This document shows, piece after piece, positions 30,752-34,772 of a stretch of 35,085 nt of DNA. The first letter of the stretch is position 1; each line of letters opens with the position of its first letter. The position numbers were made by a program, and so were the translations under genes. A model generated the notes under the pieces. It saw only the letters and a list, made by a program, of their open reading frames with translations. It had not been told where the DNA came from and made no database searches. Source of the stretch: Desulfosporosinus sp. (GTDB lineage Bacteria > Bacillota > Desulfitobacteriia > Desulfitobacteriales > Desulfitobacteriaceae). The stretch is taken from positions 1 through 35,085 of the forward strand of contig JAIMKP010000033.1 of assembly GCA_020692355.1 (NCBI GenBank), read 5' to 3'.

Positions 30752-31699
30752 TTAGATCTCAGCGAGCTGTTTCCCCATATCAGCAACGTCATAGCCGCCA
30801 ATCCCCACGACCTCATTGCGGAAAGCAGGTGAACGCAGGATTTCCAGCAGAGCTTGAAAGTGCGGTTTACCCATATCCTCTTCCCGCATGACGAGATCAT
30901 AGCGTTCCTTTTGCATGGGGATGAATTCCACGGCTTGCACCTGCATGGCGGCTTTTTCGATTCCCAGTCCCACATCGGCTTCCCCTCGGGCTACCCGGCT
31001 GGCTACTGCCACATGGCTGGTTTCCTCCTGCTCATAGCCGTTGATCCGGCTGTGAGGGATGCCGAGTTGGCGCAAATGCTCATCCAGCAAAACCCGGGCA
31101 CCAGAACCTCGTTCCCGATTGACAAAACGCAGGCCTGGTTGCCTCAAATCAGCCCAGGTATGAATGTTCTTAGGGTTTTTCGCGGCGACATAAAATCCTT
31201 CCATTCGGTAGAATAAATTAAAAACGACGGTTTTATGTCCGGGCACCAGGTGGCGGATATAGGGAAGATTGTATTCATTCGTATCGCCGTCCCAGAGGTG
31301 GGCCGTGACGACATTGGCCTGTCCGTGATACAGAGCCGATAGGCCATCCATACTGCCTACATAATTGCGCAAAAAGCGGACATGGGGAAATCTCTTTTCC
31401 AAATGCCGCGTTAAAATATCCAGAACCAGGTCTTGGCCACAGATGATCAACCCTTCGTCGATAGATGAGGAGTTGGGGTTGATGTCTCGCTCTGTCTCAG
31501 TCTGGACATAAGCTGGGCTTACCGGCAATCGTTTGGCCTTTTGCTTATAATTCTCCAAGTCGGGAGCTTCAACCCGTACCTTGCGACCGATCCGGTAAGC
31601 CGTTAAATCCCCGCGTTTGATCAATTCGTAAACCGTAAAGCGTGATATTTTTAGGATATTGGCGACTTCTTCCGGCGTGTATGAGATCTCTGTGGACAA
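30752..31699 (-). CDS. Excisionase-type HTH regulator with substrate-binding domain (putative molybdate/tungstate-responsive)
   Basis: A 315-residue one-component regulator. N-terminal helix-turn-helix of the excisionase/MerR-like type (about 6-52: YTPEEVANILKISRFTVYELIKRG), a linker (55-80), then a periplasmic-binding-protein-like domain (about 85-300) with YVGSMDGLSALYHGQANVV, FVNRERGSGARVLLDEHL and GEADVGLGIEKAA, as in the COG1910-type domain linked to molybdate sensing. There is no signal peptide, so it acts in the cytosol. Start is TTG with GGGAG about 9 nt upstream. It is divergent from modABC, which strongly suggests that it controls that operon. Ligand (molybdate, tungstate or other) is inferred from context only. 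Confidence 0.88.
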   Translation of the reverse strand: MSTEISYTPEEVANILKISRFTVYELIKRGDLTAYRIGRKVRVEAPDLENYKQKAKRLPVSPAYVQTETERDINPNSSSIDEGLIICGQDLVLDILTRHLEKRFPHVRFLRNYVGSMDGLSALYHGQANVVTAHLWDGDTNEYNLPYIRHLVPGHKTVVFNLFYRMEGFYVAAKNPKNIHTWADLRQPGLRFVNRERGSGARVLLDEHLRQLGIPHSRINGYEQEETSHVAVASRVARGEADVGLGIEKAAMQVQAVEFIPMQKERYDLVMREEDMGKPHFQALLEILRSPAFRNEVVGIGGYDVADMGKQLAEI

Positions 31700-31778: not shown

Positions 31779-31807
31779 TTGTAACTCATTATAACATATC
31801 GTATAAT
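31779..31807 (+). promoter_or_regulatory. Sigma-A promoter of modABC
   Basis: TTGTAA (31779-31784), a 17-nt spacer and perfect TATAAT (31802-31807). Transcription would start near 31814, about 80 nt before the structured leader. A divergent minus-strand -10 (TATAAT, 31788-31793) lies inside the spacer and probably serves the regulator gene. Confidence 0.65.
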
Positions 31808-31855: not shown

Positions 31856-31886
31856 TGTTCATTCATCTAACCCTGAAAATTAAATA

Positions 31887-32008
31887 TCTCGATCTCCGAG
31901 CCGGATTGTCCTAATGAGAAATCGATGGCAATCGGCCTGAGCGTTTTCGCTCACGGGGTATGCCCGGAAACAGGCATGCCTTCACGTTTTGAGAAGGAGG
32001 TGGCAAGC
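31887..32008 (+). ncRNA. Candidate molybdenum cofactor (Moco) riboswitch
   Basis: Structured leader of modA. Stems that can be drawn: P1 31892-31896 with 31997-32001; P2 31900-31908 with 31929-31936 (one bulged G); a UUUU-capped 5-bp hairpin 31939-31952; AUGCC/GGCAU at 31960-31977 enclosing a GGAAAC loop; and CUUC/GAAG 31980-31996. The arrangement (CUCCGAGCC at the 5' side, the GGAAAC loop, GAAGGAGG closing) resembles the Moco RNA motif as I remember it, and the gene context fits. A consensus terminator follows within 25 nt. The closing GGAGG is not a ribosome site, as no gene starts after it. No covariance search was possible. Confidence 0.65.
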
Positions 32009-32031
32009 TAACCCGTTATCTTTATTTTAGT

Positions 32032-32061
32032 TGCTCCGCTTTCTTTAGCGGAGCATTTTTA
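32032..32061 (+). terminator. Intrinsic terminator in the modA leader
   Basis: Perfect 9-bp stem (TGCTCCGCT/AGCGGAGCA, 6-nt loop) followed by TTTTT. It lies after the riboswitch-like structure and 40 nt before modA, so it most likely acts as the attenuator. Its 5' arm (CTCC) could pair with the GGAG that closes P1, giving an antiterminated form when ligand is absent. Confidence 0.85.
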
Positions 32062-32100
32062 TGTGCATTGTAAAAGTAAAAGAGAGGAAGGAAGTTGATC

Positions 32101-32898
32101 ATGGGTAGAAAAGTGTTAACTAGGGTGCTTGTTATGGGTTTATTGGTTTTATTGACAGGGTGTGGTACGACAAATAAGGATTCGGCAGCGAATCCCCCCC
32201 AAACCAGTTCCAAAATCAGTGTGGCTGCGGCAGCCGATCTGGCGCTTGCCTTTCAGGAGATCGCTACTCAGTTTGCGAAAGAAACTGGAATTACCGCGGA
32301 AATCACTTATGGTTCGACGGGTACTGCCGCTTTGCAGATTGAAAACGGCGCACCCTATGATGTTTTTGCCGCCGCAGATACTTCCTTTATTGAGCAATTA
32401 AGCAAAAAGGGATTGATTCTCCCGGATAGCCAACAGCTTTATGCTCAAGGGAGGATAGGAATCGCGACGCTCAAAAATAAGCCGCCCATTCAAAGTTTGC
32501 AAGCGCTGGCCGCTGATCCGTCGATCCGGAAAATCGCCATCGCGGACCCTGCGCACGCTCCCTATGGACGAGCGGCCAAAGAAGCGTTCGAGAACAGCAA
32601 AGTTTGGGAACAAGTTAAGAATAAATTGGTTTATGGGAAGAATATTCAGGATACGTTGGCGACTTTGCAATCGGGAAATGTCGATGCCGCCATTATTGCC
32701 TTATCGATCGTTAAGCCTGAAGAAGTGAACTTTTCTCTGATTGCTCCGTCTCTCCACTTGCCTCTAAATCAGGCTCTCGCAATTTTAAAGTCAACGAAGC
32801 AGGAAGAGAGCGCTCGCCGGTTTATTGCTTATGTGAATGGCGAACAGGGAAGAAAGATCATGAAGAAGTACGGTTTTCGTTTGCCGGGTGAATGGTGA
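32101..32898 (+). CDS. modA: Molybdate ABC transporter substrate-binding lipoprotein
   Basis: Extracytoplasmic binding protein for molybdate (and probably tungstate). A signal peptide with lipobox LLTGC (about residues 17-21) marks it as a lipoprotein. The mature part has the ModA pattern ISVAAAADLALAFQEIA, ITYGSTGTAALQIENGAPYDVFAAAD and IAIADPAHAPYGRAAKEA, which line the anion pocket, and ends with GRKIMKKYGFRLP. Length 265 is normal. ATG at 32101 has AGGAAGGAAG 6 nt upstream; the TTG two codons earlier lies inside that spacing. Confidence 0.96.
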   Translation: MGRKVLTRVLVMGLLVLLTGCGTTNKDSAANPPQTSSKISVAAAADLALAFQEIATQFAKETGITAEITYGSTGTAALQIENGAPYDVFAAADTSFIEQLSKKGLILPDSQQLYAQGRIGIATLKNKPPIQSLQALAADPSIRKIAIADPAHAPYGRAAKEAFENSKVWEQVKNKLVYGKNIQDTLATLQSGNVDAAIIALSIVKPEEVNFSLIAPSLHLPLNQALAILKSTKQEESARRFIAYVNGEQGRKIMKKYGFRLPGEW

Positions 32899-32983: not shown

Positions 32984-33688
32984 ATGAAAATGATCCTGGG
33001 AACGGATTTATTTCCGCTTTTTCTGTCACTGCGCTTGGCGAGCACGGCTTCGATGATCGGTTTTTTTGTTGGGCTCCCGGTTTCCTGGCTTCTCGGACAT
33101 TCAAAAGGTAAATGGGTAGAGGCGCTGGATTCGTTGCTAACGCTTCCGATGGTGTTACCCCCAACGGTCTTGGGCTATTATTTACTACTTGTCCTAGGAC
33201 GGAACAGTGTTGTGGGGCGCATAGCGGAAAGCTTGGGAGTTCCATTGGTGTTTACCACCCGGGGGGCCGTGATGGCCGCGCTGACCGTTTCCCTGCCCTT
33301 TTTTATTAAGACTTCCCGCTCAGCGATCGAAAGTGTCCCGTCTAACCTCTTGGACGCGGCCCGTATGTTGGGAAGAAATGAGGTTGAAGTATTTTTGGAA
33401 ATCGTGATCCCGAATGCCTGGCAAGGAATTGCATCCGGATTCGTGCTGATGTTTGCCAGAGCGCTGGGAGATTTTGGCACCACACTGATGGTTGCGGGAA
33501 GCATACCCGGTGAAACCCTGACCATGCCGATTGCTATTTACAATGCAATGTTGGCAGGAGAACGGTCAACAGCGAATATCCTTGTAGCCATCATGACAGG
33601 CACTGCATTTTTGGTCCTTTTGCTTCTCAATGGACTGAACCGGCGCATCGGAAGGAGGGGGAGGAAAGATGCTCAAGGCCCAATTTAA
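32984..33688 (+). CDS. modB: Molybdate ABC transporter permease
   Basis: Inner-membrane channel of the molybdate importer, a BPD_transp_1 permease of 234 residues with about five to six membrane helices. The EAA loop that docks with ModC is visible (LLDAARMLGRNEVEVFLEIVIPNAWQG), with TLPMVLPPTVLGYYLLL typical of ModB. ATG at 32984 has GGGGG at 7 nt; TTG 32981 and ATG 32990 are alternatives. An 85-nt gap with no clear structure separates it from modA, and it overlaps modC by 20 nt. Confidence 0.95.
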   Translation: MKMILGTDLFPLFLSLRLASTASMIGFFVGLPVSWLLGHSKGKWVEALDSLLTLPMVLPPTVLGYYLLLVLGRNSVVGRIAESLGVPLVFTTRGAVMAALTVSLPFFIKTSRSAIESVPSNLLDAARMLGRNEVEVFLEIVIPNAWQGIASGFVLMFARALGDFGTTLMVAGSIPGETLTMPIAIYNAMLAGERSTANILVAIMTGTAFLVLLLLNGLNRRIGRRGRKDAQGPI

Positions 33689-34772
33689 ATTGCGCTTGGA
33701 ATCTTTTCCCCTGGAGATTGGGTTCGAATTGCCTGCGGGTTCAGTGCTGGCCTTATTTGGCCCCTCGGGATGCGGTAAAAGTATGACTTTGCGGAGTCTG
33801 GCCGGGCTGGTGCGCCCGCATGAAGGGTTTATTACAATTGATGAAGAGATTTTTTATGATTCCTCACAAAAGCGCTTTATTCCAGCACGGAGGCGCAGGA
33901 TTGGCTTTCTTTTTCAAGACTACGCGCTCTTTCCCCATTTGACGGTGGAAAAAAATATTGGATTTGGACTCAAGCATTTAACCAAAAACGCAAAGGCCCA
34001 CAAGGTTCATTCCATCATGGAACGGATGCGATTAAAAGGTTTGGAAAACCGTTATCCTGACCAGCTTTCAGGCGGGCAAAGACAGAGGGTGGCATTAGCC
34101 AGAACTCTCGTGACGGATCCCGGACTGCTCCTGTTAGATGAGCCATTTTCCGCCCTGGATCGTCAGGTGCAGAAAAAGCTGGAAAAAGAAGTGTTGGATA
34201 TTCGAGATGCGTTTTCCGGAACGATCATCTTGGTGACTCATAGTTTGGATGAGGCCTATCGCCTGTGTTCACATATTGCGATTATGGAGAATGGGAGAAT
34301 TCTGCAGTTGGGCAGCCGGGATGATATATTGCACAAGCCGTTAAACCGTACTGTCGCGCGTTTGACAGGGACGGAGAATATCTTTGACGCTGTCGTGGTA
34401 GAACGGGAAGGTCAGAAAGCCGTTGTTTACGTGAAAGAATTGGAGTGCCGTTTATCCGTTCCTAATGAGCTTGGCAGTGAGAACATTTCCCTGGGAATTC
34501 GTCCGTCGCAGATTAAAGTGTTCGCTTCGGATGAGTTTTCTCTGGAGTTAGGAGAAAACCTGCTTTCGGGCAGGGTCGTTCAGAGTATTCCTGGTCCGGA
34601 TGGGCAGACGCTTTATATTAAATTGGAACATCCGGTGCAGAGGAAAGAGCGGGACTATGATATGCAAGCTCAGGTTCCAATTCGCCGGGAGAGTGTCCAT
34701 CCGAGTTTGTTTCAAACGGGAGCCCCTTGTCAGGTTTATCTTCCACCTTCTGCTTTTTCATTTTGGACATAA
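33669..34772 (+). CDS. modC: Molybdate ABC transporter ATP-binding protein
   Basis: ATPase of the molybdate importer, 367 residues. ABC domain: Walker A GPSGCGKS, Q-loop FLFQDYALFPHLTV, signature LSGGQRQRVALARTL, Walker B LLLLDEPFSALD, H-loop VTHSLDEA. The C-terminal third (about 235-367) carries TOBE-type regulatory segments (LGIRPSQIKVF onward), where ModC proteins bind oxyanion for feedback control. The start overlaps modB and has a strong GGAGGGGGAGG site. No convincing terminator follows the stop. Confidence 0.95.
   Translation: MLKAQFKLRLESFPLEIGFELPAGSVLALFGPSGCGKSMTLRSLAGLVRPHEGFITIDEEIFYDSSQKRFIPARRRRIGFLFQDYALFPHLTVEKNIGFGLKHLTKNAKAHKVHSIMERMRLKGLENRYPDQLSGGQRQRVALARTLVTDPGLLLLDEPFSALDRQVQKKLEKEVLDIRDAFSGTIILVTHSLDEAYRLCSHIAIMENGRILQLGSRDDILHKPLNRTVARLTGTENIFDAVVVEREGQKAVVYVKELECRLSVPNELGSENISLGIRPSQIKVFASDEFSLELGENLLSGRVVQSIPGPDGQTLYIKLEHPVQRKERDYDMQAQVPIRRESVHPSLFQTGAPCQVYLPPSAFSFWT

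Follow-up and report, generated by a model that had tools for sequence, protein, structure and literature searches.

The modABC operon that lies towards the end of a 35,085-nucleotide stretch of Desulfosporosinus sp. DNA (contig JAIMKP010000033.1, positions 1 to 35,085; hereafter the window) is preceded by a structured leader. This raises the question of whether, and in which direction, an RNA element controls molybdate import, and how that element came to stand before this particular transporter. The initial annotation had placed the leader between a modABC promoter and modA, and the elements that frame it are as follows.

31779-31807, plus strand: sigma-70-type promoter, TTGTAA-17-TATAAT (consensus scan, 10/12).
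32032-32060, plus strand: intrinsic terminator with a 9-bp stem, loop UUCUUU and T5 (terminator scan; -16.2 kcal/mol).
32101-32898, plus strand: modA, molybdate-binding lipoprotein of the type A lineage (NCBIfam TIGR01256, E 1e-54; tree).
32984-33688, plus strand: modB permease (NCBIfam TIGR02141, 222 bits, cut-off 183).
33669-34772, plus strand: modC ATPase (ABC_tran, E 3.5e-35; operon position).

The genes of the operon are borne out, modA and modB by their family matches and modC, which scores 222 bits against TIGR02142 and so falls under the cut-off of 285, because of its ABC ATPase match and its position in the operon. The promoter-like site taken alone is at chance level, with 1 found and 0.8 expected. 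The perfect 9-bp terminator with T5 that had been claimed before modA was recovered exactly, with nine perfect pairs between TGCTCCGCT (32032-32040) and AGCGGAGCA (32047-32055) around a loop at 32041-32046, followed by TTTTT at 32056-32060; two terminator-like sites were found against 0.5 expected in shuffles. Just past modC, the contig end (34861-35085) is lower in GC (0.44) and, judged by eye, could code for the last part of a small protein resembling a toxin.

To identify the structured part of the leader, the window was searched with Rfam covariance models. The only match above cut-off in the 35 kb was to RF01055 (Moco RNA, the molybdenum/tungsten riboswitch aptamer), which covers model positions 1-135 of 135 at 68.2 bits (E 1.5e-14 for the whole window), against a gathering cut-off of 36 bits. 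The resemblance of this multi-stem structure to the Moco RNA motif, for which a covariance search had been proposed as the check, is thereby confirmed. The element itself also stands, with both ends of the original span (31887-32061) revised: the model begins at 31882 and P1 at 31892, and 32061 is one base past the T run. A GcvB RNA candidate at 31932-32062 scored 25.5 bits where 42 are required, and was taken as a chance match, its only good stretch being the terminator. The aptamer has the following parts.

31882-32015, plus strand: Moco RNA aptamer, RF01055 (covariance model, full length).
31892-31897, plus strand: 5' strand of P1, AUCUCC (covariance-model alignment, folding).
31996-32001, plus strand: 3' strand of P1, GGAGGU (covariance-model alignment, folding).
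31938-31953, plus strand: P3 stem-loop, UGAGCG-UUUU-CGCUCA, of the Moco type and not the P3-lacking Tuco type (alignment, folding).
31957-31980, plus strand: P4, with a GAAA tetraloop at 31967-31970 (alignment).

P2 is likewise visible in the covariance-model alignment, which displays the P1-P5 architecture together with the conserved CUCCGAGCC / AAGGAG junction. In the tetraloop receptor within P2, the CCUAA side is present and the other side reads GAUGG, compared with uAuGg in the Rfam consensus. The aptamer stands upstream of the molybdenum-uptake genes modABC, as expected of an RF01055 target, and the leader is a Moco riboswitch aptamer of a kind already known and mostly previously described.

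The route from aptamer to terminator was examined by folding transcripts of successive lengths, and two further strands were defined.

31993-32003, plus strand: 5' strand of the candidate antiterminator, GAAGGAGGUGG, which includes the entire P1 3' strand (minimum free energy fold of the transcript to 32046; pairing kept in relatives).
32036-32046, plus strand: 3' strand of the candidate antiterminator, CCGCUUUCUUU, comprising the inner terminator 5' arm and loop (folding).

When the transcript ends at 32046, the end of the terminator loop, its best fold contains an 11-bp antiterminator formed by these two strands, alongside an inner helix (32006-32011/32027-32032). The best fold of the full transcript is P1 plus the terminator, which is favoured even without ligand. 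The antiterminator takes up the P1 3' strand whole, together with the loop of the terminator and the inner half of its 5' arm, and thus excludes P1 and the terminator alike. When the P1 3' strand is withheld, as it is in a bound aptamer, the terminator folds (-17.4). The initial annotation had instead paired GGAG (31996-31999) with CTCC (32034-32037); these segments are present and complementary, and a competing helix between them is possible, but in forced folds, computed without ligand or kinetics, it reaches -6.8 kcal/mol as compared to -15.3 kcal/mol for the 31993-32003/32036-32046 register.

For the window by itself, the antiterminator outperforms shuffled terminator arms by only 1.5 standard deviations, and its support comes from a comparison of leaders across the family. 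At least one RF01055 match is present in 42 of 45 genomes of the same family; these matches were taken with 2-3 kb flanks, and terminators were then located. In each leader the extended P1 3' strand was paired with the 5' arm and loop of the terminator, taken either from that leader or from swapped ones. Across 75 terminator-bearing leaders outside the moaA group (62 distinct), own pairings averaged -10.1 kcal/mol and swapped pairings -8.8 kcal/mol (z -6.3; 0 of 5000 permutations). Because relatives share sequence, the comparison was repeated with one leader per P1-extension class, and the 23 classes, all drawn from related members of one family and with an anchor on the P1 strand chosen by the analyst, gave -8.9 kcal/mol for own and -7.5 kcal/mol for swapped pairings (mean z -3.8; a fraction of 0.0002 of permutations as good). 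The covariation in related leaders that had been named beforehand as a check is seen as pairing maintained through matching changes, among them GGUGG/CCAC, GGUGA/UCAC, GUGAA/UUCAC, AUGCA/UGCAU and AAGCA/UGCUU. In 30 of the 62 distinct leaders, the window's included, no stretch of the aptamer pairs better than the P1 strand. A few leaders (L012, L034, L025, L051) pair weakly.

Taken with the intrinsic terminator behind the aptamer, an antiterminator that shares the P1 strand and is kept in relatives has the anatomy of a termination-type OFF switch. Since the terminator folds once the shared strand is withheld, the predicted direction runs from ligand to P1 to terminator to OFF. With little Moco, P1 would open, and the antiterminator would form as polymerase reaches the terminator loop, allowing modABC to be transcribed. 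With Moco bound, P1 (31892-31897/31996-32001) would be held, its 3' strand would be unavailable, the terminator would fold and molybdate import would be shut off. The leader is thus, with high confidence, predicted to be a Moco-sensing riboswitch of the termination type that turns modABC off, which supports the OFF-switch model first put forward (cofactor bound, P1 formed, terminator free to fold) with a corrected helix.

Three further RF01055 copies are found in this genome, making four with the mod leader. One precedes moaA (L004) and also bears a terminator-like hairpin, and another (L001) has a start codon shortly downstream of its P1 GGAGG. The last (L003, 1501-1613) precedes a gene resembling an iron-sulphur protein; it shares with L113 and L138 a short RF01055 match, a P1 strand reading AAGGCGG or AAGGTGG and a position before a 4Fe-4S protein gene, a type kept between genera g1 and g5 that is possibly a variant aptamer. 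The moaA leaders (L004, L101, L106 and others) carry a different platform, in which the P1 extension, GUCUGU, is the complement of ACAGAC and not of the 5' arm: among 37 such leaders it pairs with the terminator loop and 3' arm at -8.9, versus -3.7 with the 5' arm. In genome G021 (L016, 1501-1632), two Moco aptamers occur in tandem, the second 203 bases further and identical at 132 of 132 bases, each with its own near-identical terminator. No RF01055 match at cut-off was found before the distant ModA relatives of Thermincola, Heliorestis, Anoxybacillus, Chloroflexus and Sulfurimonas.

Upstream of the aptamer, a divergent gene and a conserved motif point to additional control at the promoter.

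30752-31699, minus strand: divergent one-component regulator with HTH_17 and PBP_like (molybdate-binding-type) domains (Pfam PF12727, E 8.9e-76; PF12728, E 1e-12).
31791-31807, plus strand: conserved 17-mer ATAACATATCGTATAAT, overlapping the -10 box, candidate operator (motif search in family genomes).

The regulator is 99% identical in the sister species (G039) and 88% identical in G042. Allowing at most one mismatch, the 17-mer turned up in 8 of the 10 family genomes searched, once in each except for three occurrences in G022, and a reversed-pattern control gave a single match in all. Eight of the ten places adjoin a homologue of the divergent regulator; the ninth (L170) is followed by a mod leader of type A that contains a Moco aptamer, and the tenth (L176) has neither regulator nor mod leader beside it. 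The motif is also conserved across genera upstream of mod genes. It is likely the operator of the divergent regulator, which suggests a second layer of control, at the promoter, by a molybdate-binding-type protein.

Comparison with the sister species revealed a sharp discontinuity at the downstream edge of the aptamer.

32004/32005: junction; sequence to the left is 98% identical to the sister species, and sequence to the right is unrelated, with another terminator and another mod operon (sequence comparison).

Over 2 kb covering the regulator, promoter and aptamer, the two species are 98% identical up to base 32004, after which identity drops to about 40%, the level of unrelated sequence. At the sister locus (L146), identity stops at the final base of the aptamer GGAGGTGGC, and each species then has its own terminator and ModA lineage. 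The two ModA proteins are 25-27% identical. In the ModA tree, the window protein groups with genus g5 (type A), and that of the sister species with g8, g2 and another g5 copy (type B), the split between the types having 100/100 support. The window ModA is 61-66% identical to g5 type A proteins in the tree input and up to 70% in a separate comparison. The window's genome (G000) holds type A ModA only, and the sister genome, which is 83% complete, type B only. The arrangement of regulator, aptamer and type B operon recurs in g1 (G039), g8 and g2, and type B is therefore probably ancestral and the window's type A operon the newcomer. The mod operon of the window is also lower in GC than the rest (0.488 versus 0.526), and g5 loci are lower still; one g5 genome (G022) has a type A operon preceded by the operator and an aptamer, and a locus of this kind could plausibly have been the donor. 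The observed join would result if recombination took place inside the conserved 3' half of the aptamer, and replacement of the transporter operon at the edge of the aptamer is probable. Somewhat more tentatively, the comparison favours the broader reading that the aptamer serves as a joint for exchanging whole transporter operons, whereby an ancestral importer, kept in the sister species and two other genera, would have given way to a different modABC lineage with its own terminator, joined at the aptamer 3' end. A literature search on riboswitches at recombination breakpoints found nothing.

The apparent replacement, as distinct from the riboswitch, could instead be an assembly chimera in which a contaminant mod operon was joined at the conserved aptamer. 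Short-read assemblies can be misjoined at conserved RNA elements, and the lower GC of the mod genes would fit such an error, but the genome is rated 100% complete with 1.84% contamination, it contains no ModA of the sister's lineage elsewhere, and the same order of operator, aptamer and type A operon occurs in G022. A chimera is accordingly unlikely, and replacement of the operon in the organism is the preferred reading.

Moco RNAs before modABC, including in Clostridia, were already described by Regulski et al. 2008 (PMC2408646), who report eight in Desulfitobacterium hafniense, terminators behind some Moco RNAs, and a single organism using both kinds of expression platform. The window leader agrees with that motif in aptamer sequence and structure, P3, GAAA tetraloop, modABC target and terminator, and its genome agrees in having several copies with both kinds of platform. 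The available portions of that study describe no antiterminator, whereas here one is defined that varies in step across one family. What is new here is this antiterminator register, supported by comparison, along with the candidate operator and the apparent operon exchange at the aptamer edge.

The same study associates P3-containing RNAs with Moco and those lacking P3 with the tungsten cofactor; the latter have the junction core in common with the window aptamer, which differs in possessing P3. A sensor of the tungsten cofactor, or of both, would make the switch follow tungsten as well as molybdenum, and molybdate transporters can carry tungstate; with P3 present, however, this is improbable. 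Of the two end products first proposed to control import, Moco is thus the likelier ligand and its tungsten analogue the less likely one.

The E. coli moaA element belongs to the same aptamer family and is repressed by Moco (PMC2408646), with termination traces in RNA-seq (PMC12121620) and Rho-dependent 3' ends (PMC7815308); it overlaps the ribosome-binding site, whereas the window leader places an intrinsic terminator on a transporter operon. That the aptamer here hides a ribosome-binding site while the terminator attenuates constitutively is highly improbable: the P1 GGAGG is a good Shine-Dalgarno sequence and is apparently so used in other copies such as L001, but it is followed by no suitably spaced start codon, modA is served by a site of its own (GAGGAAGGAAG, 32082-32092, about 80 bases past P1), which makes hiding GGAGG unlikely as the control step, and throughout the family the terminator arm matches the P1 3' strand.

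The termination-type reading of the leader supports the idea that a known class of riboswitch lets an end product control metal import. It also supplies a concrete and testable candidate antiterminator for riboswitches of the Moco class, with backing from the comparison across one bacterial family. If the operon exchange is real, the newcomer modABC would have been placed immediately under the control of the sensor, promoter and regulator already there. The exchange would then be a small but clean case of modular evolution, with a conserved sensor allowing another transporter to be fitted into regulation that was already in place.
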